Shown in pieces: positions 4,622-49,203 of a stretch of DNA of 64,000 bases (positions within the stretch are counted from its first letter, which is position 1; every line of letters starts with the position of its first letter). The DNA is from Daphnia pulex (lineage: Eukaryota > Arthropoda > Branchiopoda > Diplostraca > Daphniidae). The translations under genes were made by a program, and so were the position numbers. Under the pieces are notes generated by a model. The model saw only the letters and a list, made by a program, of their open reading frames with translations, was not told the origin of the DNA and made no database searches. The DNA lies in the NCBI RefSeq assembly GCF_021134715.1, contig NC_060026.1, positions 4,960,001-5,024,000 on the forward strand, given 5' to 3'.

Positions 4622-4825
4622 AAGTAATTCAATTAATTTTTTTGTTAAAGTTTAAGGGTGTAAAAAAAAGAAAAAGAAAAAAATGACAAAATTTATCGTC
4701 TCTGAACAAGAAGTTGCTATGCCTACCACTAGAGAGACTCATCATTCGGGGAAAATTTTGCCGTTTTTTTCTTTTTCTTTTTTTTACACCCCTACACTTT
4801 AACAAAAAAATAAATTGAATAACTT
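4622..4825. mobile_element. Small palindromic MITE
   Basis: About 63-bp arms (4622-4684 and 4763-4825) are near-perfect inverted copies, including TTTTTGTTAAAG and the run of A and AAAAG; the spacer is about 80 bp. Length and lack of coding fit a MITE; the superfamily is not identifiable. Confidence 0.6.
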
Positions 4826-5829
4826 AAAATGTAGATGAACTTAGTCTTCATCTTTTAGTCAAAGCTAGAAGTGCGTAACTATAGCGGTTAATTTTTAATG
4901 ATTTTTTTTAAAGGGCCCTTTTTTTGGTAGCGCCATGAGAAAAGCACGGCAACTACCCAAAGTTTCGCTCGGCGAAGCGGTTACGCATGGCGCCAGTTCC
5001 AGGGGGTAGGGAAATGTACAAAAAGGGGGAGGGCGTATTTTTTTCATGTTAACAGTTATGTAGTGACCTCCCTCCCCAAAAATCTTTACACTACAGCAAC
5101 TAGGCTGCTAATAAAAAAATAAAAAATAAAGCTGCGTAGTGCCATAAGACGCCATGTAAAAACGGGCGAAGTTGGTACGCAGTAACAACTTCGCCGGTAG
5201 GTACTGTATATTGAGATAGAACATGTGAAGACTTAATTCCTTTTTCTTTTACCACTTCAGAAAGCCTCATTCCAGCGCCTTGTTCAGGATGTCTTCTATA
5301 TGCTTACAGGTTAACTGCAAGGTTTGTTCTCTTTCCAAAACCTATGTGTGTTTGGTCCACAGTTTTTTAAAGTAAGCTTTTCTCAGTAGGTTTACCCCTA
5401 ATGCACTTGAAAGCCTACAGACTGCTTCAGAAGATTTTGTAGTCCAAGTCTTTGAGGACACAGTTCTAGCCATGGGTCACACCAAAAGAAGTACTATTAT
5501 GGTTCGTAATATGAAATTCATTAGGAACCTACGAGGAATTTAAAGTTTTCTTAATGCGTTTATTCGTTTACCGCAATTTTGATACATTCAGTGATTCAAC
5601 CAATCAAGACAAATTATTATAATTACGTACATTTCAATCGGATTTGCTTGAATTTTGAATTGTTCTTTTTCGAAAACAATAAAATTACAAGTTATCAAAC
5701 TTTACATTTCATTTGTTAAGGTCTACCTCTTGCTGTTGTCGTTTTTATAATAGCTTGAGAGAGCAAAAAATTACAATATAATACAACGAGATAGTTTAAA
5801 AAAAACTTTATCCTTTTTTTTTAGGTCGT
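4826..5829. other. No supported gene
   Basis: Non-coding by eye. A minus-strand stretch at about 5480-5290 resembles a broken exon pair but matches nothing I know. Confidence 0.3.
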
Positions 5830-6293
5830 GTAGCCAGGGTTGCCACCCGTTTCGGCACTTTTTTTGGCACTTTGAATTTTGGTGGTTTCGGCACCAATTT
5901 TTTCCGTTTCGGCACTGCGATTGTATTTTTCGGCACCGCCACCAGAGGTGGTCCTAAGTATTGGTATTTCGATGCATGTTTTCTTAGCCTTTTTTGTCCG
6001 TTTCGGCACTATTATTGTCTGTTTCGGCACCGTGTATATATTGTGAAATTTTGCCCACTTTGTTCTTAGACGCTTTATTATCAAGTGCTATATACATTTC
6101 TCAGATGTTAGATTATTTATTCATAAAGTTTATTTGCTCATTATCATTAGGGATGTCGATATATCGTCAATTTCAGATTTCAGGTGTATCGATATCTTAT
6201 ATCTATATTTTAAGATATATCGCTGCTCAGTATCGGTAAAAATGAAAATTAGCGTGATCTGTTCTCGTACTTCTTTAGAATTGAACTGAGTTT

Positions 6294-26192: not shown

Positions 26193-26364
26193 ATATAGGT
26201 CAGTGTCTCCTATCTTTCGTAAAAGATAAGTTAAGATAAGATATTTTTTGTATCTTTTTGGTATCTTGTATCTTGTGTCAAATTCAGTTACAATTAAGTA
26301 TTTTCAACTTTAGGGTATGAAAATAATGGTAACTTTTGCCTTAAAAGATAAGATACTTAAGATC

Positions 26365-27131
26365 AGGGTTGTTAACGATACTTTAAAATAATATCGGCGA
26401 TAGAGATACCGATACTCGACTTTTTTTTCTATCGGCGATACCGTTACCGGTACTGGTTTTCGAAAGTATCGCGATACCGATTATTTTTGTTTATACCGGT
26501 ACCGATACTTTTGAAACATTTAAATTCATAAAATTACTAATTTCATGCAATTGTTTTTTTCCCCTTTTTTATTTAAAAAATTCGGTTAACACTTCATGTA
26601 ATGGAATAAAGAATTTCCACTTTTTGAGGCTGGGCCAAAATATTTAAAAAAAAGTTTTCCAGACAAATATTCGCGATGTCATTTTTTTTCGTACACCAAG
26701 GACTGTAACGACAGACGAAATATCGCTATCAGAGTATCGATCGTTACTGCTTCGATACCCTTCCGATACCCCTTTTTAAAAAGTATCGCCGATACTGACT
26801 CAATACTAAGTATCGCTAACGGCGATACTGTAACGGATGTCTCACGACTATCATATAGATCCGTTGACCCATGTATCAGTAACGGCTAGATCAATAGCCT
26901 TTAGTCAAATAGCATAGCACGTGAAGGAAGCATGCAGAACAGACCCAAACCGGAAGTGTCAGATAGTTCCGTCAGATACGACATAAAAGAACATCCAAGC
27001 CGGGCAACCGGGATCAGTCTATTGTATCGCATCACGTTGTATACTTCATCTTAATAAACGGTCCAACCATCTGTCACTCTCGTTACAATACTATCGGTAT
27101 CGATTCCGCTACCGATACGATATTAACAACC
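26365..27131. mobile_element. Inner hAT-like element with CGATAC words, itself interrupted by a solo LTR
   Basis: Ends GGGTTGTTAACGATAC and, inverted, GGTTGTTAATATCG. Flanks TTAAGATC and GTAAGATC agree in 7 of 8 bases. TATCGGCGATACC-like words recur through both arms. A 259-bp LTR interrupts it near the right end. Confidence 0.6.
26829..27087. repeat. Solo LTR
   Basis: 259 bp beginning TGTAACG and ending CGTTACA, flanked by the 4-base duplication ATAC (26825-26828, 27088-27091). Contains AATAAA at about 27053. No internal domain or second copy nearby, so it is a recombined remnant of an LTR retroelement; the family is unknown. Confidence 0.75.
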
Positions 27132-28018
27132 GTAAGATCCCATCTAGCAGTAGAAAAATGATTTACTTTGAGGTATGAAATTCGAAAATTTTAAGGCCAA
27201 GGCTGTTCAGACTTCAGATTTAAGAATACTGAGAGCTGACAGCTGACTCATCAGGACGTTGCAGACTTTCAGCCATGCTTTCAGCGAATTAGTCGAGCTT
27301 TTTTCGTCTAAGACTCTGAGTCTCTGTACTCTCTGAGATTTTAATCTTCTGATAGCGTAATTTTGCTTATATTTTTTTATCTTATTTTTTTTTTTAATTT
27401 TTCATCACATTGCGTGTGATCTGTGATCTAGTGTTTGCAAATTAATCCCAAGAAATCCAGTAGGGCCTAAGTATTTTCAATTTTTTTTGTGCCCTACCCT
27501 TACCGGCAATATTGCCATTCGTTTTATACTATATAATCTAAATACAGCAGCAGTGTTCTTTTGTTATCTCTCTGTTGCTGAGTTGCTGACTTGCTGTTTG
27601 AATATTGAATTATCATTTTTATCACTCAGATTAGTCAGGTATGAGTAACTCAATGACCGGTTTGTCGTGCAATACAATGCAAAAATTGAACAGTTTTACA
27701 CTGTTCAATTTGCTTGTCGTGAAATACAATAAAGAAATTAAACAATTTATCGACTCAAATGTTCTTTTTCCTTTTTTTCACTTTTTTGGCTAAAAAATAA
27801 CTACTATCTTATCTTAACTTATCTTATCTTTAGCCCACCATAAAAATTCGGAAATATCTTATTTTTTTCGTATCTTGACTATTTTTTCCAGATACTATCT
27901 TTTATCGGAGCATTTTTTTCGGTATTTTGGATACTAACTTAACTTTTTTTGGGGGGGGGGATTAATTTTAGTATCGAAAAATTTTTGTAAAAAAAAGATA
28001 GGAGACACTGATATAGGT

Positions 28019-29352: not shown

Positions 29353-29430
29353 CATATCAGATCTCGCCACTTGTCTAGCTATCTCAATTACTCATCAGTT
29401 CGCTAGTTAGCGACTTCGAGCAATTATTCA

Positions 29431-29469
29431 ATTGCTGAACAAGTATCTCGACCTGGATCTATTATGGTG
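29431..29469 (+). repeat. Left inverted terminal repeat of the DIRS-like element
   Basis: Starts ATTGCTGAACAAGT and ends ATCTATTATGGTG; the complement is at 49165-49203. Inverted rather than direct ends are the mark of DIRS1-type elements. Confidence 0.7.
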
Positions 29470-29599
29470 ACTTCAATGCACTAGTTCATAAGAAAGAGAC
29501 CTAACGGTCTTCATGCAATACGCATGCCACAGACGCTCCCGATATCGGGCGTCGGTAATATCGAGTAAACGTGGACTCCAGTACTGAATTCCAGTACTC

Positions 29600-30257
29600 T
29601 GCTAGCAAAATAGCCTAGGTTGGGACCCCCAAATGAGCAGCTTTCGATGCGACGCCTCGCATTGAGTGAGCCGAGTCCACACCCGCATCAGATAGAACCA
29701 CTCTTAATCGAACGCGCTAAAGTTGAGCCGCCTACTGAGTTCCAAGGCGGACGCAGTCCCAACAGAAGCAATTTAGACTTTGATCCCGAACGAAATTGGT
29801 CAGAAACTGTTAAATAATCTTTCAATGTCTCCACCGGGCACGCGAGGGAAACGGGCTGCATTTTCTTTAGCGTGATGACCTGCAATGGCGAATTTCGCTA
29901 AGTCTTTCTTGGTTTTGACAAGCTAAAGTTCGTTTGTCCTTCTTCCGTCACGATTGAATCTCTGTCGATATTGGCCAACTCCAATACTCTGCGCAAAGAC
30001 GATAGCGCCAGCAGAATGACCAGCTTCTTTGACAGGTCCGGAAAAGATAAGCCACTGTTAGGGCCCAAAGAGATTAAATAGTCCACCACTGTACTAACAT
30101 CCCAAAAACCTGAATATTTTGGGACTGGCGGTTTCTTTTTATAGGCTTCACTCATCAGCTTAACAATAAGCGGATGCTTGCCAATGTCGTAACCATCAAT
30201 CTTGCCAAACGTTGAGAACAGCATGGAACGGGCAACATTTATGGTCCTAGATCTCAT
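29600..30257 (-). pseudogene. DIRS tyrosine recombinase remnant
   Basis: Part of the DIRS-like fossil. Core phrases GKIDGYDIGKHPLIVKL and KKLVILLALSSLRRVLELA match the tyrosine recombinases of DIRS/Ngaro elements, which integrate circular DNA by site-specific recombination instead of using an integrase. The gene is broken. The IS4EU element abuts it. Confidence 0.7.
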
Positions 30258-30299
30258 ATTGTTGTTATTTGAATTACACGTTTGTTGTTACGTTAAAAC

Positions 30300-32440
30300 G
30301 TGAAACTTGTCAAGTGTTTGGTTCCTAATTGTACTAGTCGGCCCAGTATTAATGCGGAGATTAAGTTCTTACAATTTCCCAAAAAACTTGAAAAAAGAAA
30401 AGTGTGGTTCAAGGAATTAGGCCTTGACAGCTGTAATTTCCATCCAGAAAGACGCCTACATGTCTGCGAGAAACATTTCGAGGTAACTATTTCTAAATGA
30501 AGACTGAGTACAATTTTGTCAATCATGTGTATCTTTAGTTAGAAAATGATTTGAAAGATTACGACAAATTTCAAAATGGTATTGGCTACATGAAACTCAA
30601 ACCTGATGTAGTACTCATCGCAATATCCCAGAAGGTAAGAAATATTTAATGTTGTAATGAACAAGTCACAAGTTTTCTGTAATCTATTTATTGATAGCTA
30701 TTACTACAGAAGACAAATATCAAACTGGGTCGACCAATATGAATTACAATCCATGTCTGGTGAATCAGACCAAGGAGGTAACACATTGAAATGATTATGC
30801 ATTAATGAATACAGTCTTAACTGTCATTGAAATTCATTGGTAGAATGACTGTCAGTAGCATGTCCAGTGGATATGGTAGTCTCACTAGCGAATCAAGATT
30901 ATCTTGCAATTTGGAATGTGAAAATCTGTCAGATCCCATTGATGATGGTATTTCAGTTAGAATGGAATTTCTGTTACACCTTCGATGATTTAACATTTGT
31001 AAATAATGCAGGGGCAAGAGAATCAAGTTTAAATAACGAAAATTTTGGACTTCAAGAAAATAGAAATATTCCTGACATTTTTTTACATAAAGCAACACAG
31101 ACAGATCGTATGCGACCAGTGCATGGTTTACTATGGAAGAAAGCGACAAAAACGTAATATGCAAGAAAGCCTTTGTAAGAAGCAAAGCAGTGCAACACAA
31201 TCCAATTGGCTGGGATATGAAAGATGCAGCAAGTAGTCCGTGGAAGGTTACGCCACAAAAAGAAAACAGTCCAATTCCTTAACAAACATCCACGCCACAC
31301 TCATGGCACGTAACATCTACTCCAATAAGTGAGAAAAGAAAGGCATACAAAATGGAAGGTGGTCGTTTGGATACGTTTCCTTCATATTCTGAAGGGAGGA
31401 TGAAAAGGAAGTGTACAAGGTCACTGAAATTTCAAGACACTTCGGACACCGAAAATCACCAAAATTTGTGTGAAACATCAAGCTCAACTATTGGCAGTGA
31501 CCTATCCTGGCGAGAAACCAGTACTTCAACCAACGCGTCCATACTTTGTACCTCGGATTTCAAACGGAAAAGTCTCATGCGCGTCCGACAGCTGATTGAA
31601 AGTAATCTGAAAACCTATCTAGGCATTGACGGTGACTGGCTTTCTGTTATTTCCCTACTCACTTCAAAGTTCAAAGTAAGAGGTAGTCTAACTTCATTGG
31701 ATATTGCTTGCCTAGTCATAAGGAAAATTCGCTTGAATGAAACCTTTGCTGTCCTTGGACATGAATTTGGAATTTCTCTTAGTCAAGCATCCAGATATTT
31801 CAAGTGCTTCTTGCCTTTTTTCGCGAATCACATGAAAGAACTAATTGCTTGGCCAAGTAAGGAAGCAATCCACAGAGCAATGCCTATTGGATTTCGAAAA
31901 TCATTTAAGAAAGTAATGGCGATTGGCGATTGTTTAGAAATCAGCATCCAAAAGCCAAGTGACGCTTTCGAGCAGGCGTTAACTTGGTCTGATTACAAAA
32001 AAGCTAACGCAATCAACTATTATGTAGCTATCTCCCGAAATGGGTTGTTCATGTTCTGTTCTACTGGTTATGGAGGAAGAGGAACTGACGAATTAATTGT
32101 CTCTCATTGTGGTTTCTTAAATAAACTGGAAAAAGGTATGCACATCATGGTCGACAGGGGATTCAAGAAAATAGAAAGTATGGTTTTGGCAAAAGGTTGC
32201 GAAATTGTTCGTCCACCTAGTGTGTCCGATGGTAAGCAGCTTTCAAAAGAACAAGTGATAACTGGTAGGAAAATCGCCGGTGCACGAATTCATGTCGAGA
32301 GAGCCATTCGTCGAATTAGAGAATTTAAATTTCTTGCTTCACATGCTGGTATTCAACATTCCTTGATTCAATGTGCTGATGACGCTATTTCTATTGTGTG
32401 TGGACTCACCAACCTTCAAAGTTGTTTAACTAGATGTTGA
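30300..32440 (+). pseudogene. IS4EU transposase: THAP zinc finger plus DDE_4 domain
   Basis: First exon at about 30300-30482 reads VKCLVPNC, FPKKLEKRKVWFKELGLD and RRLHVCEKHFE, a C2CH THAP finger for sequence-specific DNA binding. Short exons follow (30540-30632, about 30700-30777), then the long frame 31352-32440 (362 codons). The catalytic core shows AIGDCLEI (first Asp), MVDRGFKK (second Asp) and RIHVERAIRRIREFKF (Glu), so the DDE triad is complete. No ATG opens the THAP frame: it begins at GTG after an in-frame TAA, so the start is lost or the leader is spliced from elsewhere. The region 30840-31350 is not open throughout. The long DDE frame is intact. Confidence 0.7.
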
Positions 32441-33183
32441 ACGTGGTATTGTCATTTCGCTAAATGTTGTTTCGTGTGCTTATTGATTTTCTGCATACTG
32501 ATCTGATACAATACAGGTGTACTTCCAAAATCACATTTTTTTTATTCAAGAACAAAATTTCCAATAGCACTTTTCCAAAAATTGAGAGCTTTCACCATTA
32601 ATGCTGTAATGTACTTTGGTTCATAATCGATAGGCAAAATTTTGACTTGTTTGTTTTTTTCGAATTCAGGACTGGCAACACAAAAAAAGGATTTTTTTCT
32701 ACCGGACATGTGCATTTGCAACTGGACTTGGGCATTACATTTATGAGTTATTTTGCCAGATCTATCTATTAAATGGAAATAAGACTTGTCGTTGGAAGGG
32801 CATTTGATTTCTAACGTGTAATCAACAGTAATGGCATCTAGCGACGCACTGAAGATTGGGTATTTAGGGTGTGACATGATACCACAACGTAGAAAAGACA
32901 TTTTAAGCTTTTGTGACACAACTTCAAGCACTTGTGACTCTAATCTTGTTCCTCTCGACATAGCTGCAGTCTCTCTCAATTTTGCGCCATGCATTATGTC
33001 CACTAATGATCCATTTACAGTTTTGCAGTGAGAAATAGCATACAAGTTGGATGCTGTTATACGAAGATACCTGTTTAGTTGAAAAAAATTGTATAAAGCA
33101 CACTGATAAAATAGTGGTAAAATTAAAGTTTGAATTACCTTAACCTGTTCCATAGAACACTATCTTTTTGTTCGGTTGTCAAC

Positions 33184-33431
33184 TGTGAAGTTTAAATAAA
33201 CTGATACAATATCTATGCAATTAACTGAGGACATTTATTTAAACTACTCCAAGTATGTCATACAATTTCTGTCTTACTATCTACTTACAGTCTGTTCGGG
33301 AGAGAGATTAAAGTAAGAGTGGAGATAAGAGCACTTTGACATAAGTCACCATGAAGAAGAGAGTAGACCAAACAGTCAAGAGAGGAGGTTGCCCTCTTGA
33401 CTGCTAGATGGCGTAGTTTGCTATTCTTACA
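33184..33431 (-). repeat. 3' LTR of the Copia element
   Basis: 248 bp; carries a 60-bp stretch missing from the other LTR. Confidence 0.88.
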
Positions 33432-36400
33432 CTTTCCCTCAAACACACATACATATGAAACAAGAAGTAGTATAAACGGGATAAGGGATTTTTAAAAAAT
33501 CTTTCCCTCAAACATGACATTAGAATGGAGAGGATATGTGAGGAAAAATGAAGACAACCGATTATGACATGATTAACGAGTTTGCCATTATACACTTTCC
33601 CTCAAACACGGTATCAAAAAATAGACAAGGAGAAGGATTCGGAGACGAGAAAGAAAAAATTGCACAGCAAGATAGTGAAAAAAAAACGTTATTACTTTTT
33701 ACCTACACCAATCTTTTCTCTGTTTTTCTCAAACGAAGTCCTTGGGAGGGGCTTGGTAAAGATATCGGCCAATTGGTTCTCAGATTTCACAAACAATACC
33801 TCGATGAGTCCGTCTTCGTCCATTTTGCGAACAAAATGATAACGGTTGTCAACATGTTTTGTCCGTGGATGGAATTCCGGGTTGCGAACTAGTCGCACAG
33901 CACTGATTGTCGCAGAAGAGCGGGACTTTGTAGTTAGTTCCAGTGAAGTCGTTGTGTAGGGTTCTCAGCCACACAGCTGTTTTTGTCGCTTCACTGGCCG
34001 ACACGTATTCCACCTCGGTGGTGGTAGCGCAACACATTTATGTTTCTTACTGCTCCAGGCCACTGGCCCTCCATGAAAGAAGAAGATATTTACAGAGGTG
34101 GATGTCCGGTCATTGATATCGCCAGCAAAATCCGCGTCGCAGTATCCCATAATGACGTTCTCTTCATCGCCGCCAAGCAAATCAATCAAGTTTACAAAGA
34201 TTTGTTCTACGGCTTCCCAGTGTGAATTTGATTGAAAGTCCGGATTTTGACAGTGTTTCACTACTTGTCCAACAGCATAAGAGATATGTCTGGTCTGGTG
34301 TAGATTGCAAGATAGAGAAGGGCTCCTACCGCCTCTCCATACGGGAAATTGAACGAGTCTGATGCAAGCATGCACCGTTTCAGCCTTTTGGATGGGTCAG
34401 CAGGGATGAACTTAGGAGACAAATTTCCCATACAAAATCGGTCGATCAATTTCACTATCATGTGCTGCTGGCTTAGGTGGATTTTCTTGTTGATTAGGTC
34501 TCTCGTAATATCCGTGCCTAGAAAACGAGTGGGGGGAACAGATCGTCCTTAAAATTGCTCAAACAGCACAAGCTTGACAAGTGCATCCAGGGCTTCCGTT
34601 GTAGTTGCTGCCATAAACAGATCATCGACATGGGCAATTACAATTAAAATGAAAATTTGATCTCTGAGCACGTTGACACACTTATCTGCATTAGATTTCA
34701 CCAAGTGCTTGCCTTTGTGTGAGAAGGTTCCAAGAACTCGGTCCAGCAGTTGATACCAAAGGCGGGGCGCTTGTTTAAGACCGTCAATTGATTTTTGCAG
34801 CTCGCATACCCATGATTCATTCCCTTTTTTAAGGAAGCCCTGAAGATGTTTCATGAAGATTTTCTTGTCCAGTTCTGAATATAAGAACGCCGTTTTGATG
34901 TCGATTTGTTTGGCATACAAACCGCGGGACGCAACCTCAGCGAGTATTGCTTTGACAGCTTCTTGATGAGCGACAGGAGAGAACACTTTGTCGTAGTCAC
35001 GGCCAAATTTTTGACGGCAACCAATAGCTACAAGACGTCAATTGTATCTCTCCGGCACACCTTCGTAACCTGGTTTAATTTTCCCAATCCATTTGCAGTT
35101 GATAGCAGTGTATCCGGGAGGCAGTTTTTCGACTAGCTTCCAGGTGTTGTTTTTCTCCAGAGAGTCAAATTCCTCTTTGAATGCCGCCATCCACTTTTCA
35201 GGACAATCCGACGCTACTGCTTTATCATAACTCTGAGGATCAAATGGCTCGGCAACGAGAGCTAATTCGTTTGTACGAAACTCATCGAGAAGCACCATAT
35301 CCGCTTTATCTGCCAGACCTCTTTTGTACTCATTGTACCTCGCAGTATATTGAGGTGCTCTGCTTGATCGACCAACGCTCCATCTGCCAAGTATCAGTGG
35401 CTCCTCCCCAGGTAGACTTTGGATTAGCTCGACAGGATTCACGGCAGGTGGTGCAGGAATATGTTCAGGTGACACTGGCAATTGATCATCGACTTCTATT
35501 GGTCCAGCTTCAGAATTCACGTCGTGGTCAGCTTCTTGAAAAACACCAGACGGGCTATGACTCAGTACCCAGTCATCAATCAATCCATTTTCAGATAATT
35601 CTTCGACCGTTACGAACGATATTTGGTCATCAGTGTCGTCTTCTTCGCTGCCGTCCTGGTCTTTGTTCGGCTCAATGACACCGATTTCACGGTTGATCGT
35701 GATTGGTGCCATGGCAGGAGCATTGACTTGGTTTGGTAGGGGATTTTCGATCTCGTCATCCTGTATAACACCCAAAGAGAGAGACGGAGGAGAAAGAAAA
35801 AAATTCTAAGAAAAGATTTTAAAATTAAATGGATATCAGAAAGTTACCAGTCCGAGTATCGAGATACAATGTGAAACGGTTCAAAGTTTTGTGGAAACAT
35901 GTTGGTTTGGTTTGTTTTTTGACTCTGGAACATCAGTGATGAGGAGCGTTTCGTCGAAACGGACACTAGGACTTGTGGTATACTTCCGTGTTGTCGGGTT
36001 ACATAGAGTCCATCTTTTTTTACCATCTCCATAACCGACAAACCAGCATGCTTTCGATTTTGGGTTCAGACTTTTTTAAGTAGATCAGGTGTGTGGGGAT
36101 AGGCTCGGCAGCCGATCACTCGCAAATTACTCAGATCCGGTTTGGTGCCGAAGAACAGTTTGTATGGCGTTTTTGTGGAGATGGAAGAGATGACACGGTT
36201 GAGAACGTACACCACGCCGATCAAAAAATCTCCCCACATCTCCAGCACAGACCTAGGAGCTTGTTCATACATGTTGGTGATTTTGTTTGAGCGTGTATTG
36301 ATTATGCTTCGGACTGCCTCCATCCCGGTCCTGTTCATGCTTTCCGCACACCATTCTGTTGTGGGGTGTATCTGCATGATGTTTGATGGACAATGCCAAG

Positions 36401-38461
36401 TTCTTCCAGTCTAGTCTTCAAATACTTGCTGCCGAGTTCAGTGCCTTGATCACTTCTCACAATTTTCACTTTGTTACCAGTCGAGGTTTCAACGAAGGCA
36501 ATGAAGTTAAGAAGATGGCCAGCACTGACGTCCATCCAGAGTAGTCGTCTTTGAAGGTTGTGTAGCATATTTCACCTCTTGAGGTGGGAATAGAGACAAA
36601 GCCAACGTCCGTGTGAATGATACCGCCAGCTTCTGTCGCTCTGGTTCTACCAGGTGGAAATGGAGAACGCATCATCTTCCCAAGTGCGCATCCTTCACAT
36701 ACACAGTCGGTTTTGCATTTCCTAGTTGAGACATCAAATCCTTTGACAGCTCCAATTCGGTTTTGTCTTATGATGGTTTGGTCGTTGAGATGGACGAGAC
36801 GGAGATGTGCAAGGCGAAGAGAAATTTCACCATGGGCAGCAGCATTAGCTGTTTCTTCTTTGTGATCAATGAGCTTTGGAACAATTTTCAAATGATAAAG
36901 GGAATTTCCCTGCTTTTGACCGACCATTATTCCAGTACCGTCCTTTGTAAACTCCACGTCGTCACCGCTAAAGTTAACATTAATACCCATGTCGGCCGCA
37001 CGACCGATCGAGTAAAGGTTTACACCCAATTCAGGGACGTAGAGAACTTCTTTTAATTCGCCCTCCAAGACTTTTCCATTGACGTAGGAGTGAATCGGAA
37101 CAGTCCCAATGCCGGCTGCATGAAGAATTGTGTTGCCAACACCATTCACCGTCCACGAGCCCGGAGGTATATCACGAAGATTTTCAAAATAAGACCGGTT
37201 GCTCATCATGTGATGAGTGGTGCCAGAGTCAGCGTAGATGTACTTGGGTCGCCGTACTAGATGACACAGTGATGTCAAGCCGGCGAAGGTTTTCTTGTCC
37301 AATTCAGGGTCAAAGTCGCGATTCTTGTTGTGAGTGATACCGCGAGCCTCCTTCTGGTCAGCCTGTTTCTTGTCTGGACAGTTGTTGTTTCTGTGACCAG
37401 GCATGCCACATGACCAGCAGACCCCACGATTGGACTGACTCGAGTTGCCGGCTCTGTTGCCATCACGATAGTCTTTTCCATTATTGCCACTGCCTCTGCC
37501 GCCACCACGATAGTTGGGATTGAAGTTCGATGCTTTGCCTCGATAATTAGAATTTCGATATTCATTCCGTACATTTTGATCTGGCGATTGAACAGAAAAA
37601 ATCGCTCATAAGACATTAGTATCCACAGAATATTTTCTAATCAGGCTTTGTTACCTCTACTGTTGTTGTTCGACCGCGTTGCCAAAGCATTTTCAGCCGC
37701 GGACTTCAGTCTAAGCGGGTGTGTGGCAAAGAAAGCCACATCTTGGGGACTTATAGTCCCATTACTTCTGTCATTCAGCTTTCTTTCCTCTTCCGATAGT
37801 TTGGCTGTGAGATTAGCCATGGTCTGATCAGCCACTGGTATACCACCCCACATTGTCTCGAACACAACATAACTTGGGGGTAGAGTTTGGATGATTTTGG
37901 ACACGATCATATCGACAGTCTGTGGCTGTCCCACACCTCTAAGCTCCTCTACCATCTGTCTGAAGACATTGACATGGGTAGTGACCTTATGGTCTTTTGG
38001 GAAAAAAGAATTTTATTTTATTTTTTTAATTAACAACCATCATTTTTGAAATGTTTCACCTGGATTCATGTTGTAGCTGTGGAATTTACCGAGAAGTGAT
38101 CGGACATTAGATGCTGCAACGTCAGCAAACTCAGCCAGTAGCCTTTGCCACATTTCCTGGGCAGTAACAGATCCTTCGATAGAGCTCTGGTAGGTCGGCT
38201 CGATGTTGTAATAGATCAATTGTTGGGCTTGCAGATCTTTGGTCACCCAAGTTTCAATCTCAGCTTGATTAGTGACTGGAGCTACCCCCTCCACTGTTGG
38301 ACCCAGAACCTGTAGACAGGATAGATTTCAGATTAATTTGCCTTTTTTTCTCTTAAAAAAGTAAATTTAGAATAGGATGCTGAATTGATTTCCAACTGCA
38401 CAAAGTGCCTAACCATTGCTTTTGCTTAATCACAAGTCACAAACAAAAAGAATTGTCTGTG

Positions 38462-38810
38462 CACAGTTAGATCAACATGTGCTTTACGATCAGTTTTCCT
38501 CATTCACATAAGTGACCTGAGACTTGCATTCTGACTGCACAGATGAATGAACATGTGCCTTACAATCAGTTTTGCTCATTCACATAAGTGACCTGAGACT
38601 TGCATTCTGACTGCACAGATGAATTAACATGTGCCTTACAATCAGTTTTGCTCATTCACATGAGACTTGTATTCTGACTGCACAGATGAATTAACATGTG
38701 CCTTACAATCAGTTTTTGCTCCTTCACATTAGTGACCTGAGACTTGCATTCTGACTGCACGGTTGAAATTAACACGTACCTTACAATCAGTTTTTAAATT
38801 CGGAGCTGCA
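38462..38810. repeat. Tandem repeat, period about 76 bp, in the Copia leader
   Basis: GACTGCAC recurs at 38533, 38609, 38676 and 38753, with AACATGTGCCTTACAATCAG and ATTCACATAAGTGACCTGAG in each unit. Four to five imperfect copies between the 5' LTR and gag (minus strand). The copies share the same order of words, so they arose by slippage inside the element. Confidence 0.85.
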
Positions 38811-39091
38811 CAGACTTAGTTAGACTGGCCACATGAGCATGGTTCGACTGGCCACACTGGAAACACAAAGTTTGATATTTAACACGAGAGCACTTTTTGT
38901 TACCTACTGAGGCTTGGGTTCAGTGCCTAAGACAATGTTCTCTAGTCTCAGCACCTTAAGCTTGAGCATGATGGGCCATCATGCCATCATTGATGGCATA
39001 GCGAAATTGTGGAAAGTTGATTCCGTTGAAACGAGCAAACTCTCGTCTTTCGGTAGTGGATTCGTTAGACATACTTTAAGTTACGTAACCC

Positions 39092-39104
39092 TAGGCCCAT
39101 AACC
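39092..39104 (-). other. Copia primer-binding site, half-tRNA type
   Basis: Minus-strand GGTTATGGGCCTA directly follows the 5' LTR. It complements the anticodon arm of initiator tRNA-Met (GGCCCATAACC), as known for Drosophila copia, which is primed by a tRNA fragment. Confidence 0.6.
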
Positions 39105-39296
39105 TGTGAAGTTTAAATAAACTGATACAATATATATGCAATTAACTGAGGTCTGTTCGGGAGAGAGATTAAAGTAAGAGTGGATGGAGATAAGAGCACT
39201 TTGACATAAGTCACCATGAAGAAGAGAGTAGACCAAACAGTCAAGAGAGAAGGTTGCCCTCTTGACTGCTAGATGGCGTAGTTTGCTATTCTTACA
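39105..39296 (-). repeat. 5' LTR of the Copia element
   Basis: 192 bp, TGTGAAG to CTTACA, followed by the TCAAC duplication. Confidence 0.88.
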
Positions 39297-40237
39297 TCAA
39301 CTGAGCGGCTTTATCACACACTGATTCAGTCATCTTCAATGAGCAGAAATTTTAAAATGTGTCGATGCTTTTTTATGTTGGGTGTTCTTTCTTAAAGTCT
39401 CTTGACAAGCAGTGTAAATCAATGCAATCAAATTCATAGATTGGGAGGTATATCATGGCAAGTTCAGGAATCACTAACAGTTTCTGGCTCTTTATTTTAG
39501 AATCCATGTGATCAACGACTTCCTTAAAAAAAGATCCGTGAATGGATGTTGTGGTATTAACTTCATTCCTTTTTTTGTGTATTCTTTTGTTTTTTGTTTT
39601 ACTCAAAGTTTCTTTTGTTTTCTTCTTCCATTTTGTTTTCTTTTTTAAGTCTCGTTCCTTAGATCCAATTTTCTTGGCTAAAATGAACTTAATAGTAGTT
39701 CCCACTTTCGATAGTTTGGATTTCTTCCAGTAGCATTCCTTTTCAGTTGGAGTTTTATCTTCACTACGCCTATGCATCGAACCCAACAGAGCTAGCTGAT
39801 GTTTGCAGCCTCCCAATGCTGCAATGCAATCATAACACACGATACTATTTCACCTTTGAGAATGTTCACTACTAGTTCCACTTGATAGCCTTTGGAGGTA
39901 ACTTTGTGTTCAGGTGCAACACAGCATCTGACGGTGTGTATGTGTGCTTCCCTTTTCACCTGTACGTAGCTATAGCTGATTCTCCATATGATTTTCTGCC
40001 ATTACGAATGGCTTTAACATTAGAGATTTCTGGGGAGATAAAATTGGAGTCTTTACCTATGAAAACACAAAGAGAAATTAATATGTTCACTTCCGGCAGA
40101 TTATCACTAGTGGCTTTTTCAAAGCCTACTAATAACTTGTGAGCCATTGTATATAAAATAACAAGAAATACACACATAACAACAATCTGAGACAGCCAGA
40201 AAATTTCACGTTTTTGTGAAAAAAACGTCTGCTACAT

Positions 40238-43200
40238 TTATCCCATTTTAAGGACCACCCACCAAAAATGGCGCATGTCCGTTTTAAAGAGGGAGGAGCC
40301 ACTTCGTGAGATCAACCACTTGGCCCGAAAGGCCGCTGCTTTAGAGCGGTCCCCTGACAATCTCCAAGTGATCAGCAGAAGCGATCCCGCTAGTGGATGC
40401 TGTTTGCCCGCCGGGCCCAACAATAACTCGGAAGAGCGAGAGCCGGCTCGCACGACAATTCGAGCAGAGACGGAAACCATGGCTGAGCTGGCCAATATGG
40501 CGTCACCAACGTCAGATCCACCCGCTCCATCATTATCTTTATCAGACACCTCTGAACTAGTCAAAATGGCGGAAACGCGTAGGCCCCCCGACCCGCCCAG
40601 CTGATGCTGAACGCATCCCCTGCCAAAGCGCCCAGCTAGTGGCCCCAACTGACGAACTGTTCCAGTTGCCTGTTCCGTGCGGAAGCTAAAAGATTTTCCT
40701 TTGGGCTCCAGTGAGCTCTTAGGAGTCCGAATGTTGCTGGATTGAGCTTCCAGTCGCTTGAGTCCAGAGGCGCACGAGACAGCCGATCTGCAATGACATT
40801 TTGGGCCCCGGGAAGATAGACCGCATTAACAGAAATAGTACGTGGCTCACACCACGCTACGATTTCGGAACTTATCCGGCAGAGTTCTTCCGACTTCGAG
40901 CCTCCAGATTTGTTCACGTAGTGAACCGCCGTGCTGTTTTCCAGCATCAACCTCACTGAAACACGATATGCAAAACTCGTGAATGATTTCAGGGCGAACA
41001 GGGCTGCTAATAGCTCCAGTTCATTTATGTGGCGGGATCTGCTGCGATCTGTTTATGGCCCTTTGGCCGCGACTCCGTTCAAAACTGCACCCCACCCTGA
41101 TAGGGACGCGTCGGAAAAAATCACGAGATCCGGTTCTACCGTTGAAAGTGGGCGCCCATTGGAACTTTCCACGTTGGATTCCCACCATACTAAATCGGAA
41201 ATTGACTCTTCATCCAAGCGGATTTTAGTCGATAGATCTCCGCCTGTACGCGCCGACTCTTTCAAAAATTTACGCTGGATGCATCGGTAGTGCCCTTGGG
41301 CAAAGGGATCCCTGAATGGCCCATGCCAGATTCCCTAAAATTTTTGCTACTTCTCTCAGCGAGACGGACGTAGCGACCCCTGCCTCTCAGCAGATCTTCT
41401 CAATTTGTAGTACCTTGCGGGGTAAGAGGGAGAGAGAGAGCGAGTCTACAATAAGGCCCAAAAATTCTCGTTGTTGGGCGGCCACGCCCAGAGATTTTCT
41501 CTGTCGATAAAAAACCCGCATTTTTCTAGCAAGTCTACAGTCAGGAGAAAATCGCGCTCTGCCCCCTCTTTAGACTGATTCAGAATCAGAAAATCGTCTA
41601 AGTAGACTATTATTCTAATCCCTTTCCTTCTTAGAAAAGCCACAAGCTTATACAAAAGAAACATAAAGGGGTTAGAATTTTACCCACTTAAATAGGTTTT
41701 TATTTTGGTCACTGATCGGTACTGTTTTTATTTTAACCTGAATTGGAGCGAAGCCCACTAATCTCACTCTTATCAGTAAACTTGAAAACTCACTAAGACT
41801 AGCGGTTTCAAAATTTTTGAAAACGACCAGTGGGCGGACAAGAGCCCGAAACAAAGGCAAGTAAATTGAAAAAGTGACCCGTTCCAGAAAAATTGTAAGA
41901 ATTTTGCATGATAAGGGTGAATGGGAATGGTAAGGTAAGCATCCTGAAGATCTATCTTCGTAAAAAAATTGCCTTTCCTTACCATTCCCCTCAGCACGCT
42001 GACGCCCTCCATTTTAAAGTGTAGATGCTCTAAGAATTTATTGAGTGATTTTAAATTTATAATGGGCCTAAAACCCCTCGAGCATTTAGGGATGACGAAA
42101 ATTCCGCTCACGAAGCAGCTACTTTCGAATGGGATTTTTTCAATAGCGCCTTTAGACAGAAGGGACGTCACCTCGGCGTCACAGATCACCTTCATCTTTG
42201 AGCTAAGGAACATGTTAATTCCGGGGCAGATTTGGAACGGTACATCGATAAAAGGAATTTTCAATCCCGTGGAGATCGCTTCCTAAACCCAAACATCGGC
42301 CGTTAAAGATTGCCAAAGGGACGCGAACTTGTGGACTCTTCCGCCGACCCTGACACCGAAAATCGGCGTCGGCAAAACAATTGGAGAGACGGATAAATTC
42401 GGAGAGACTAACCTTGAACCACGGTTGGAAGAACCAGGCTTGGAGCCACGCTTATTAAAGTTGCCGTGAAGAGTGAATCCCTATCCTGCTCTACCGCTTT
42501 TCGAGCCACGTGAGCCGCTGGATCTACTGTGGTGGCCCGAGGACGTGGATGGACGTCCCCCTGGTTGGCCCAAAGCCTTCATCTTCTGGTCGTCTGATGC
42601 ATCTCTCACCATACTCTTGAGGAATGTCCAGCCGAACAGCAACCCGCAGTCCCTCGGTTTAAAGCGGCCCAGTTCAGACAGCAAGGCCTCGAGGCATGGG
42701 TCTGTCAGGCGCAGCACATTTTCTCTCCTCTACACGGTGATGCTGTGAAACGAGTGGCCCCACAACTGCAGGGCTGATTCGGCCGCCGTGACGAAAAGAG
42801 GGTTTGAGGTGGCCGGATTCGTTGCCGCTTCGGTCATGTCACTACCCCACAGATACAGGGGCGGCTTGGCGATGTCCAGAATCTTGTATTTAGAGGCCAC
42901 CGGGGCCTTCTTCTTCGCTTCCGCCTTGCTTGCTTCCCCTCCTCTCACTTCTTTGTGCCTTTGTGCCATAGACGGGTCCAACTTAGGGACTTGCACGTCA
43001 AAAGAATTTTTACCGAATGATGGGACAAAATTCTCCCGTAGTTGCTTGGCCTCCGCCGGCTTCTGGGCTGCCGTCATCAGCTCTTTGGAACGCTCCGCGT
43101 TCAGATGAAAATTTTGAGGCAGCGTGGGCTCTTGTTCTTTGGGTGGCAGAACATTTTCGGCTTCTAAAATAACTTCTTGATCTGGGAGATTTGGTTCGGG

Positions 43201-43539
43201 CAGAGTAGGTTCTCGGTGCCGAGCCGTGGAACGGTTGTCTGCTGAACGGTTGCTGCCACGTGATGAACTGCGGCTCCTGTTGCGGCTGCGCGTGCTCTCT
43301 CTGCCCGCAGAATTCTCTCGACCACTCGTGACTGAACGGCTACGAGAGCGGCTGCGCCTCCTGCTTCTCTCACGGAGCCTGCCTCGACGGTCTGCATCGC
43401 GCCTTTCTTCGTCAGTCCGGGAATAGCTGCGTAGGCGACGACGATATACATCTCGATTGGAATCGGAACTCGACGAGAATGATGAAGGTCTTGACAAACT
43501 TGAAGAACTTGGCGAACTTGGTGCTGCTGGAGGTGCCAT
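40238..43539 (-). pseudogene. gag-like, reverse transcriptase and RNase H part of the DIRS-like element
   Basis: Fossil coding region. 43539-42730 is Ser/Arg-rich and gag-like. 42264-41773 reads RPIINLKSLNKFL and TKIDLQDAYLTIPIHP, reverse transcriptase of DIRS type. 41664-41446 has IIVYLDDFLIL, and 41265-41053 FSDASLSGWGAV. 40956-40636 has TAVHYVNKSGG and LPGAQNVIADRLSR, RNase H. The parts are broken. No methyltransferase domain is seen. Confidence 0.72.
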
Positions 43540-43654
43540 GTTGTCGCTTTGAAAGCTGAAAAAGGTCTGAAGGGGCGTATGCCTTAATGGCCTGAGGTGA
43601 CATCATTCTTTTGTTTCTTTTTCGTTCTTTGAAAAATCAGCTGGGAAATACAAG

Positions 43655-43771
43655 TGGAATGAAGTGAAATAAATGGGATGAGAGTAACAGATGTATTCTC
43701 GTCTGTGTACCAAGACCAACTGCCGTCTCTAAGCTGCAAGGGGAGGGGAGAGACATTGCCAAGTCATTCCA
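43655..43771 (-). repeat. 3' LTR of the Gypsy element
   Basis: 117 bp, one mismatch to 49038-49154. Confidence 0.9.
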
Positions 43772-46700
43772 TGTCTTTTTCTCCAAGGAGCAAATCACGA
43801 AACAGACAAACAAACAATGAAGTACCAAGAGATGATCAGGGGAGGGAAACGAAAACCAAAAAAAAAACATGAAAGAACACAAAATTAGACGACGGCCGAA
43901 TGGGAAGTGATGGAAAGAGAAAGGTACAATAAGAAACAAAAAACTGAAAGGACGAATAATGAGAAAAAGCGACTAATGAGTAAGTGACTAATGAACACGA
44001 AATGAAGGAATGAAACAATATTCCGTTAAGAACACTAGTCCACCAGCGTATGGAAATTACGGTTTCTTGGCCGCGAGACGCGTCGAGCGACGAGGACCGG
44101 CCGGTGATGTGTCAGCGGGAGCCGCGGGAACAGGAGGAGCTGCTGTCGTCGGAGAAGAAGATGAAACCGGAGGACGGACACCATTAGGCGCCGGAGACGG
44201 GCTATGAGGTACGGACGTAGGGGAATGCAAGCGAAGAAGACGACGATTACGACGGAATAGCCGACCAGCGGGGGTCTTTACCAAATAGTCCCTGAATGCG
44301 TCAACTTCCACGATGACTCCCGGAGTTTTCCAGCGTTTGGAATCGTGATGCTGAATGACGACGTGATCACCGACGTGAAGGGCGGGAAGTGGGCGTGTGG
44401 TGTGGTTGTAATGGAGGGTACGAAGTTCTCTGGCGCGGAGTGCGCGTTTTTCGAGAATTCCGGCAGCCTTCTGCCACTCAGGCGCAAACGAACGACGATG
44501 TGCAGGGATGAGGTCACGAGAGGGCCGGTTAAAGACCACCTGAGAAGGGGATGCGCCTCCGGCAATGGGAGCATTACGGAAGAGGAGGAGGCCTTTCCCA
44601 AACTTGTCCAGGTCAAAGGAACCTGAGGTCCAGGATCCTGCAATGAGTTTTTTCATTGATTTTACGGCAGCTTCCGCATAACCGTTAGACTTGGGATGAT
44701 GAGGAGAAGACCGGCCGTGAGAGATGTCCCATTCTCGCAGGAAAGTTAGGTACTCATCCGACTTGAACTGTGGGCCACCGTCGGACCAAAGCTTGACAGG
44801 AGCGCCTGCTCCGCAAGTGAAGAAGGAGCGGAGGGCGTCGGTGATTCGGCGTGTAGATGTGTTGGTGTCTGGAAAGGGGTACACCTGGGGCCAACCACTG
44901 AACTGGTCGGCAACAATCCAAAAATCGCGACCGCGAAAAGTGCCAAGGTCGGCAAAGATAAATTCGAACGGACGGGATGCCGGCTTGTGTGGAAGAAGGG
45001 GCTCCGACGGGTTGGAAGGGAGACGCTCGGAGCAAGAGGGGCAGGATTTGACGGCCATGACAATATCATTGTCAATTGAAGGCCAATACACTGGCGGCGT
45101 GCGCGTTGGCGAATTTTTGTTGCGCCCTGGTGCATCAGGAGGAGCCGACGTAGAATTTCCGGGCGTTAAGACGCCGGAAGGACGACACGAGGACCGACGA
45201 GGATGATGTCATTGTCGACGTAAAGTTGGCTGCGGACCTGCCAAAATGGGCGTAGCTCCAGGGGAAGGTTGCATTTATCATTTGGGAAGCCCTGGAGAAT
45301 GGTGCGACGGAGAGAAATCATTACAGGATCGACGGCAGGCGCTGCAGACACCGATGACAATAAAATATCCGGATTGGCGGAGCTGGATCCTTCCATAACG
45401 TCCATCAGATGAACGCGCTCGGAAGCTGAACGGGGGCCTTCCGCGATCTCGTCCGTTGGAGAAGGTTGATCAACGGGGGAGCGGGATAATGCGTCGGCCA
45501 TGACATTTTGTTTTCCCGGTACCCACGACGCGGTGAACGAATAACGCTGCATTGAAAGGCGGAGGCGCAGAATCCGGGGGCCAGTTTATCTAGAAAATAG
45601 TCGTTTAGAATGGGAATGAGGGGTCGGTGGTCCGTAAGGAGGTGAAACGACGGTAGGCCCTCAAGAAATTGCCGGCATTTTCGCATAGCCCATGCTGCAG
45701 CCAAACACTCCAGCTCTATCATGGCGTAGCGGGATTCGGCGTCGGACAGGAACCAGGATCCAGCTTGAACGACAATCCAACTGCCATCAGTCTGCTGCTG
45801 ACGGAGGATGAACCCTAATCCAATGAGCCGAGACGCATCAACATGAAGGGACGTCGGTCGAGCGGGGTTGTAAAATGCCAACTTGAATATGGAGGTAGAG
45901 GACAAGGCAGCTCTGGCAGCTTAAAAATCCGTGTCGTGCTGCGGAGTCCATTCCCAAACGAATTCTTTGCGTAATAGGGGAGACAACGGACGGAGCAGGG
46001 ATGCCAGGTCGTCCGAAAAGTTCCCGACCTGTTGACAGAGGCCGTGGAAGGCCCGCATTTCGGACACGCAGGTTGGCTTCGGGAACTCATGAATGGCCTT
46101 GAGCAGATCAGGGTTGGGTTGAAATCCACTTTCACCGACGACGTAGCCGCCGAACAATACGGACGGTTGAGCAAACACAATTTTCTTGACGTTGATAGCA
46201 ATTTGATGATCCGCTGCGAGATGAAATAGACGCCTCACCAAGCTGACATGCTCGGCCCAAGTGGCGAAAAAAACCAGGACGTCTTCGACTACGCGCCGGC
46301 AGTTCGGGAAATCATCAAAAACATCAGCTAGACGCTGACCGTAGTCGTCACCAGCGAGAGAAACACCAAAAGGGAGGCGGAGATATTTGTAGCGGCCAAA
46401 TGGAGTGGAAATGGTCGTCATGAGGCTGGATTCGTCGTCAAGTTCCACTTGGTGGTATCCTTTAAGAGCGTCAATTACCGTGAAAAATTTCATCCCTGGG
46501 GGAATTGTGCGGACCGCTTGAAAAGGAGTCGGTGCCTCGAAAATTGGCCGAATGATGCACCGGTTGAGAGACGTGAAATCGCCGCAAATCCTTATTTCGT
46601 CGTCCGCCTTTGGCACGATCACTATGGGGTGGACCCCCGCAGTCGGTTCTGTCACTTTGGCGATGACATTTTGCTTCTCCAATGAATCTAATTCACGTTT

Positions 46701-49037
46701 AACCTTCGGCATTAAAGGGACCGAAATGGGGCGCGAACCACGGATTGACGAGGGAACTGCATCATCCTTGAGCTGGAAATGGCATGGAGCGCCGCGCATC
46801 GGCCGGCAGACACCATCGAAGATGGAAGGTACTTCCGACATCAATCCAATCAGTGTTGATTGGATGACTGGCGATTCTGGATAGTCTGGAGCACTCGATT
46901 CGGAAGAGGGAATGGATGCCAACACGCAGGAGTGGGGGTATTGGGCAGGAAGCATTCCAAGTTTCTTTTGTGTTTCCTTTGAAACCACCGGCTGCTGAAG
47001 ATCTTGAAGGACATGGATCGATGTGGCGACCGGACCGCTTGAACTGCTGGCCCAAACCAACGATGCGTGAAACTGGCCCAGTGATATTATAGAAGAACCT
47101 GTGGCAGTCACGGCTTTGGGGCCGTGAGAAGATTATGGAATGTCCTTGAAGTGACGATGATATAAGCCAACCGGGATGGCGTCGATGGATGCTCCGGAAT
47201 CTGGAAGCATTTGAATGAAATATTCCGCGGTGCTGCAGGTAGGAGTGATACCGAGCCGGACCATGTCGTCTTGAAGGATGGACTGAATGGTGAGCTACCG
47301 GCGATTTCAGTTTTAGGTGATGAACTACCTTGGGAGCACACTGACTGAAAATGGCCCGACTTGTGGCACGTATGACACTCCTTCCCGAACGCAGAGCATT
47401 CCTCCTTTGCATAGCGGGATGCAGCTCCACAGCTCCAGCAACCATACGGTTGACAACCGGGAGGGTACCATCGGACAGATGGTTTACCGCGGGGCTGACT
47501 CCTCTGTGAATCTGCTTGCCTGTCGTTGGGCCGCTTCCCTTTTAATTTGATGGACGGTGCCGCGGTACCTTGCTTCATGTTGGACGACTGCAGACGCGTG
47601 GCCTCTGCCGTGCGAATAATGGTGATAGCTTTTTCTAGTGTCAACTTAGTGCCGAGCTCCAATAACTTGCGACACACATCGTCGTCCAGAACACCGAAGA
47701 CAATTTGCCCCAACAGACGCGTGTTCTGGCAGGCAGCGCAGCAATCCTTTTCAAACTCGCACTTGCGGGATAAATCTCGAATGTCGCTGAGCCAACTGTC
47801 GATGGACTCGGCATCACGTTGAACACGAGAGGCAAACTGCTGGCGCCAGACATGACAGTTGCGGCCAGCGTTGCACCGCTCCTGCAGTTTCTTGATGATG
47901 ACATCAGCATCTTCCAGGTCAGTCGCGGATAAACCCATCGTTAACACCGCCTTCAGTGTGGAATTGGAAAGACAGGACAGCAGAATATTGGTGATATACT
48001 GTGGGCGCTCAGTCTGGGGCAGCGCCGTGTTGATAGTTGAAAGGGAGAGAAAAATCTTCCACTGTTGATGCCATATCTCGAAGGAATCCTTGAATTCTTC
48101 CACGTCGAGAGGAGGTGGCGTGCCATAAGGCTTGAACGGTTTGGGAGGCATCGCGACACGACGTGAAATGGATCACTGATCAGAATAGGGATGAACAATA
48201 ATAAGTGAAAAGGGACGGAACGAGAATGAATTGAATTTGAACGGAGTTGAATGAAATATTTGAATGAAAATGAATGGCCAGTACGGAGATGAGAACAAAT
48301 GAGAATGGGACGATGGGTGGAATGATAGACACTGAAATGTGGGAGAATAGAATGAATTTGGAAATCCACGAATTCGGAAATGCAAGCGTGGAACGAGAAT
48401 GCGGGACGCAAGTGAACAGGGGGGGGAGAGAAAATCAAAATGGCGGCTCACAAAAAAAAACGGGAGAGAGGGAATCAAAAGAAAAAATTAAATGTACTGA
48501 AGAAACTAGCGTGATACGGGAGGAAATACTCAAAAGTAATGAACGGGAGACGAGTGGGGCACACCAGAATAACGTTGAAGGAAAAAGAATGGCGGGCGCG
48601 CAACATGTGGGCCCTCTTCAAGAATGAAACAGAAAACGGACACGAACGCACAAGAGATAAGAGGAATATAAGAATAATAATACCGATGAACTGAAATAGG
48701 GGTGAGAATGGGGCAATGGACTCAAGTGATGAAAATTGAACGGAAACGGGCCGGCGTCATGAGGAAACTCACACAAAACAAAATGGCGGCCTCCACAAAA
48801 CCACGCTGGGATGATGAGCACCGAAAGGGAATGGACGATCGTAAGGAAGAAACGCACCAAATCCAAAATGGCGGCCTCCACCAAAACCACGCTGTGAAAC
48901 GGCCGGGGGGGAAATCACAAGAATACTGGAAACAAGTTGAAAATTGCCTGTTCACATTCACACACACTACAAAAAAAAATTGAAGTTGTGATCGGGAATA
49001 AGTTCGAGAATTCACGAAGAATAAATCAACTGCGCCA

Positions 49038-49154
49038 TGGAATGAAGTGAAATAAATGGGATGAGAGTAACAGATGTATTCTCGTCTGTGTACCAAGACC
49101 AACTGCCGTCTCTAAGCTGCAAGGGGAGGGGAGCGACATTGCCAAGTCATTCCA
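49038..49154 (-). repeat. 5' LTR of the Gypsy element
   Basis: 117 bp; its inner edge abuts the primer-binding site. Confidence 0.9.
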
Positions 49155-49164
49155 ACAAGGTCAA

Positions 49165-49203
49165 CACCATAATAGATCCAGGTCGAGCCACTTGTTCAGC
49201 AAT
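49165..49203 (-). repeat. Right inverted terminal repeat of the DIRS-like element
   Basis: Complement of 29431-29469 with two mismatches. The Gypsy duplication lies six bases inside. Confidence 0.7.

Follow-up and report, generated by a model that had tools for sequence, protein, structure and literature searches.

In the genome of Daphnia pulex, the window that we analyzed (64,000 bases, positions 4,960,001-5,024,000 of contig C10, in the one assembly examined, which comprises 133.19 Mb in 13 contigs) contains a cluster of repeats at 29358-49203 that is very probably a pile of ordinary transposable-element insertions in one old, dead DIRS1-like retrotransposon. This retrotransposon, the oldest layer, lies on the minus strand and is multiply interrupted and apparently 3′-truncated, with a length of about 4.1 kb once its guests are removed. 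Inserted in it are a Gypsy element, a short piece of nuclear mitochondrial DNA (NUMT), and an ISL2EU-like DNA transposon that is itself split by a Copia element; all of the pieces are known kinds of element. A first-pass annotation of the sequence had described a four-layer stack and proposed, in outline, that the DIRS element came first, followed by a DNA transposon, a Copia element within the latter, and a Gypsy element. This outline is borne out by the nesting, the target duplications, the broken genes, and the paralogues that lack the inserts. The depth, however, is three (DIRS, ISL2EU-like, Copia), the Gypsy element being a second, separate insertion in the DIRS element, and the earlier list of pieces was incomplete, having missed both the NUMT and a fragment of a miniature inverted-repeat transposable element (MITE)-like family. 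We found no description of the present locus in the literature searched, although this search of print was not exhaustive.

Guests of the DIRS1-like element

The Gypsy and Copia insertions are the steps for which target duplications give a clear history, as the first-pass annotation had claimed for the whole cluster. The Gypsy element (43655-49154, minus strand) is bounded by 117-bp long terminal repeats (LTRs; 43655-43771 and 49038-49154) that differ at one of 117 positions, and is flanked by a duplicated ACAAG (43650-43654 and 49155-49159). Pfam matches over the cut-off place a reverse transcriptase (RT; RVT_1, 1.2e-10, 45924-47111) before an integrase (rve, 2.7e-8, 44060-45091) on the minus strand, which, together with the LTRs and the duplication, marks a Gypsy (Ty3) element; a relative on contig C11 is 91% identical. 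The uninterrupted pre-insertion sequence is preserved in a DIRS paralogue on contig C3, L029 ATACAAGGTCAACACC. The annotation had placed this insertion near the right DIRS end. Since the left inverted terminal repeat (ITR) of the DIRS element extends inward to about 43564, the Gypsy element in fact lies inside this ITR, about 45-50 bp from its tip.

The Copia element (33184-39296, minus strand) has LTRs at 33184-33431 and 39105-39296, which differ at 2 of the 188 bases that align and by two indels, of 60 and 4 bases, and a TCAAC duplication at 33179-33183 and 39297-39301. Its integrase region, with a Pol_BBD match (3e-18, 36469-37404) and with gag_pre-integrs and rve below the cut-off, precedes SH3_retrovirus (2.5e-6) and RVT_2 (6.5e-30, 34552-35037), downstream on the minus strand and in broken frames, and this order, along with the LTRs and the 5-bp duplication, is that of Copia (Ty1). 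As the annotation had proposed, the insertion split a nuclease gene: the C-terminal part of a YqaJ gene (32542-33153, minus strand; Pfam YqaJ, 2.3e-12) lies on one side and its broken N-terminal part (39376-40001, minus strand) on the other. The comparison set for the surrounding DNA transposon comprised eight distinct other loci (L065-L073, with L068 and L070 being one locus), and in four of the eight (L065, L066, L068, and L071) the two YqaJ parts lie close together, with a convergent transposase and without a Copia element. Apart from the Copia element itself, the genome yielded only a 68% match over 283 bases. Both LTR elements resemble the Copia and Gypsy retrotransposons reported from D. 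pulex (PMC2996953) in their direct LTRs, their integrase and RT domains, and their 5-bp duplications (4-6 bp reported); neither was matched to a named family.

Two further features of the Copia element were recorded. The 60-base indel (33230-33289 versus 39150-39151) separates LTRs that are otherwise almost identical; an origin by splicing was rejected by eye, as its edges are unlike intron edges. The stretch 38460-38794 consists of 4.5 tandem copies of a 76-bp unit.

The DNA transposon that hosts the Copia element (30252-40192, plus strand) has 20-bp terminal inverted repeats (TIRs; 30252-30271 and 40173-40192) that match at 18 of 20 positions, compared with 15 of 20 for the best of 60 shuffles. 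Its transposase region (30297-32440, plus strand) is in pieces, with THAP (2.7e-10), HTH_Tnp_4 (1.3e-9), and DDE_Tnp_4 (3.7e-40) matches, THAP and DDE being on separate stop-free pieces. The combination of a THAP-HTH-DDE transposase with a second open reading frame (ORF) carrying a YqaJ domain, a pairing that recurs at other loci, is the coding content given for the ISL2EU group of the PHIS superfamily in PMC4482050. By predicted coding content, the element thus fits ISL2EU. The same source gives an AT target duplication (A|AT|T target), a TIR usually starting with GG, and a mean length of about 4.8 kb; here, the TIR begins with TCTCA, the length without the Copia element is about 3.8 kb, and the right junction is rearranged. 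The name IS4EU, used in the annotation, occurred in none of the 20 papers listed, out of 76, in a literature search. A genome search with the left end of the element matched the window only, and one with the right end gave one further partial match.

The annotation was right that this transposon inserted into the DIRS element, but it had placed the site between the RNase H and recombinase parts; the ISL2EU-like element interrupts the recombinase gene itself. On the left, similarity to the DIRS element breaks off at 30248-30249; on the right, it begins again at 40308-40315. At the right junction, the window has 43 bp of unassigned sequence and a 65-bp MITE-like fragment (40236-40300, strand not assigned), whose family was found at 21 further places among the 50 matches listed (85-89% identical; seven were fetched and aligned). 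The TIR flanks read GA and CA, without a clear target duplication, and the original flank may have been lost at the rearranged right junction. Because DIRS sequence is missing at the junction, a MITE fragment is present, and a clear duplication is lacking, this step is less clean than the others, and the claim of a clear history from target duplications does not extend to it.

The last guest is an insertion of about 151 bp in the RT region (41647-41797, plus strand) that is absent from L029 and from a second paralogue, L034. Within it, 41653-41755 is cytochrome-b DNA derived from the mitochondrial genome, 87% identical to contig C13 and 93% identical to a longer nuclear mitochondrial copy on contig C5. 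The identification of C13 as mitochondrial rests on its size of 15,333 bases and on cytochrome b, as which a fetched 2-kb stretch reads (Pfam, genetic code 5, invertebrate mitochondrial); a second long frame in this stretch is presumably nad1, and ARAGORN found no tRNA in these 2 kb. As is typical of NUMTs, the piece is a short fragment of mitochondrial DNA in the nucleus; it differs in lying inside a retrotransposon and in being accompanied by about 50 bp of unassigned sequence.

A probably single DIRS element and its 3′ end

The DIRS element itself is recognizable from a chain of damaged pieces on the minus strand. Its first ORF (42730-43539, 269 aa, RS-rich) is gag-like by position and has matches in L029 and L031; a Pfam scan of this ORF gave no match. 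The pol remnant (40308-42282) has broken frames and 66-82% DNA identity to paralogues, and includes RT pieces as well as stretches that we tentatively take to be RNase H and methyltransferase (MT) by their motifs, Pfam having given no match for either. At the left lies a tyrosine recombinase (YR) remnant (29516-30248). As query, we used the recombinase of locus L084 (C8:1755144), which scores 34 bits, over the cut-off, in a genome search with the PF00589 profile; a DIRS RT match is found about 2 kb away from it. In tblastn, its residues 83-263 and 267-328 aligned to 30248-29703 and 29692-29516 (E 6.5e-45). Because the alignment begins only at residue 83, this left part is, by similarity, a tyrosine recombinase that breaks off at the inserted transposon, with its first ~80 residues absent; it supplies the recombinase characteristic of DIRS1-like retrotransposons. 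Pfam and PHROG scans of the window recombinase pieces returned no integrase family, and searching PDB sequences with the recombinase piece of L029 brought up nothing of use.

That the two halves belong to a single element, as the annotation had held from the gene order on either side of the insert, is supported by the paralogues, for which we used nine (L029-L037) of 18 stretches fetched from genome matches. L029 aligns to 29387-30248, 40308-41643, 41798-42093, 42199-43065, 43268-43654, and 49155-49203 in a single order and on a single strand, and it lacks the 10-kb insert, the NUMT, and the Gypsy element. L030 and L037 likewise carry both halves colinear across the insert site, with the 10-kb insert absent; L031 has both sides but is more damaged, L032 has the recombinase side only, and L033-L036 have pol-side pieces only, L035 additionally retaining part of the first-ORF region. 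Over the longer matches, identity to the paralogues is 64-82%. Separately, a 488-bp direct repeat in L029:4629-6011 is present in two identical copies (4629-5116 and 5524-6011), perhaps the LTRs of a further young insertion.

The annotation had further pointed to 39-bp inverted ends 19.7 kb apart. The inverted pair (29431-29469 and 49165-49203) does match at 37 of 39 positions, but most likely only its right arm belongs to an element end. This arm lies in the outer end of the left ITR (49160-49203, starting with ATT), outside the Gypsy element; 49155-49203 aligns to L029 7550-7597. On the opposite side of the Gypsy element, the inner part of the ITR (43564-43654) matches the right terminus of a further copy, L054 (1357-1438), where it is continuous with the part matching 49155-49202. 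The left arm, 29431-29469, is complementary to the tip of the left ITR and is followed by extension-like sequence in the orientation of an internal complementary region (ICR; compare L054 1027-1130). Next to it, 29358-29430 has an 81% inverted match to the right terminus of L032 and a 78% match to that of L054 (1458-1524), and similarity ends at 29358. Copies of this 73-base stretch, complete or partial, occur in L029, L030, and L037 and, in inverted orientation, in L032. L054 shows the same layout behind its recombinase and, 200-300 bases farther out, a second, inverted copy that we take for the right terminus (85 bp, 76%). PMC3266345 gives the 3′ order of DIRS1-like elements as recombinase, left ICR, right ICR, right ITR, and right extension. 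Since L054 combines this arrangement with a separate inverted right terminus, the left arm is most likely the left ICR rather than an element end, with 29358-29430 as the putative right ICR, judged through L054 and L032 because the window copy has no right terminus of its own. Two earlier candidates for 29358-29430, a target site and a tandem DIRS junction (suggested by L030), were dropped once L054 had shown the ICR arrangement.

Internal complementary regions beside the recombinase (29358-29469) are thus among the features of DIRS1-like elements present here. ITRs at both ends and a right extension are also expected, and of these only the left ITR was found: whole-window searches with the right termini of L054 and L032 matched only the left ITR and the right ICR, at E up to 0.05. 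DIRS1-like elements are further marked by integrating without a duplication of the target. The element looks 3′-truncated, and, because L054 and L032 do have a right terminus, we read the missing right ITR and extension as a loss from the window copy, the family name resting on the other features. DpuDIRS3 and other D. pulex DIRS1-like elements (PMC3266345, PMC2996953) share with it the ATT start, a left ICR of 38-39 bp adjoining extension-type sequence, and a pol that precedes the YR. They differ from the window copy, which is interrupted and in which the right ITR and extension were not found; DpuDIRS3 was compared by its published description.

Alternative readings

Several observations pull against this picture. 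The RVT_1 matches on the DIRS RT pieces (E 2.4e-4 and 6.7e-4) are under the curated cut-off, Pfam gave no match when the YR and RNase H pieces of the window were scanned by themselves, and the 63 PF00589 matches in the genome do not include the window. No close DIRS relative was found, the best YR-side match being L030 at 71%, and the recombinase half was not detected in the closest RT relatives, L034 (82%), L035 (76-78%), and L036 (75%), which limits the single-element test. The ISL2EU-like insertion shows no visible AT duplication, about 160 bp of the DIRS sequence of L029 is replaced at its right junction by about 115 bp of other sequence, and, of its related loci, L067 and L069 have only the C-terminal YqaJ part and L072 and L073 have neither. 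Five copies have the ICR arrangement (the window, L029, L030, L037, and L054), and a separate right terminus was seen in just one of them, L054, within the sequence retrieved; at L030:3273-3497 the left ICR runs straight into a nearly full-length inverted right terminus, unlike in L054.

Because the closest RT relatives lack a detected YR half and no close DIRS relative was found, the case for a single DIRS element draws on colinearity and on the match between ICR and ITR. One could instead imagine the remains of two different DIRS elements flanking the DNA transposon, as the different nearest relatives of the halves (L034 for RT, L030 for YR) and the DIRS sequence missing at the junction would allow. 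Yet L029, L030, and L037 keep the same order and orientation, the junction lies in the middle of the recombinase, and 37 of 39 positions agree between the left ICR, next to the YR, and the left ITR of the window, next to the gag-like ORF, compared with 33 and 31 for two other left ITRs and 29 and 28 for two right ITRs. A derivation of the two parts from different DIRS families, which the annotation had named as the case against its claim, was looked for and did not emerge; we consider it very unlikely. Even further down the scale, and exceedingly improbable, is an assembly artefact joining unrelated repeats. The stretch is repeat-rich and a single assembly was available, but an artefact would hardly produce exact 5-bp duplications at both LTR elements and a matching pre-insertion sequence in L029, and the contig is 16.3 Mb long.

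The 3′ end leaves somewhat more room. An ITR and a left ICR cannot be told apart by their sequence, so that 29431-29469 might be a true terminal ITR and the shared 29358-29430 a mere terminal extension. The rarity of a separate right terminus would agree with this, none being seen in L029 within 1.9 kb or in L037 within 1.3 kb. Against it, the ITR-plus-extension sequence of L054 lies between the YR and another, inverted copy with the look of a right terminus, a terminus also present in L032, and window 29358-29383 runs on into right-type ITR sequence. With ICRs of 38 and 89 bp and an extension that measures 50 bp, DpuDIRS3 as published (PMC3266345) also agrees better with the 39 bp found here being a left ICR. 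On balance, we regard a terminal ITR at this position as unlikely and retain the left ICR.

Insertion history and wider meaning

The nesting fixes the order DIRS, ISL2EU-like, Copia, and places the DIRS element before the Gypsy element and the NUMT; the ISL2EU-like, Gypsy, and NUMT insertions may have followed one another in any order. From the low LTR divergences, we conclude only that both LTR elements are recent relative to the DIRS element. A plausible course of events would start with reverse transcription of a DIRS element and insertion of the copy through its tyrosine recombinase, the right terminus being lost later. An ISL2EU-like cut-and-paste transposon would then have entered the recombinase gene, with loss of DIRS sequence and a MITE fragment ending up at the right junction, and the Copia element would have integrated in the YqaJ gene of this transposon, producing a 5-bp duplication. 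Independently, the Gypsy element would have integrated in the left ITR, again with a 5-bp duplication, and the cytochrome-b piece would have entered the RT region, probably when a break was repaired by end joining.

A neighbouring element in the window, at 26193-28018, has 17-bp perfect inverted ends (26201-26217 and 27994-28010) and an 8-bp duplication ATATAGGT, a pattern that points to a hAT-type element. Inside it, at about 26365-27132, sits another element with inverted repeats, which has TAAGATC at its flanks.

Elsewhere, four related loci on contig C7 (L058, L059, L060, and L063) carry the outer ~30 bp of a DIRS right extension at the place where a fifth relative (L032/L061) has its DIRS 3′ end; no further DIRS sequence was seen in the four. 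It is tempting to speculate that the family may integrate by homology to its own right-extension sequence, although we think this quite unlikely: scrambled flanks in the L032 copy make the argument weaker, and the plainer alternative is that the ~30-bp sequence is the footprint of a lost DIRS element. If homology did guide integration, and if the extension-like sequence was there first, the recombinase would recognize a target resembling its own circle junction.

Taken together, the locus offers a clear example of how a repeat cluster builds up, with paralogues lacking the insert for both the Gypsy and the Copia steps. It also suggests that the left ICR of a DIRS element can pass for a terminal repeat and thereby make truncated copies look complete.

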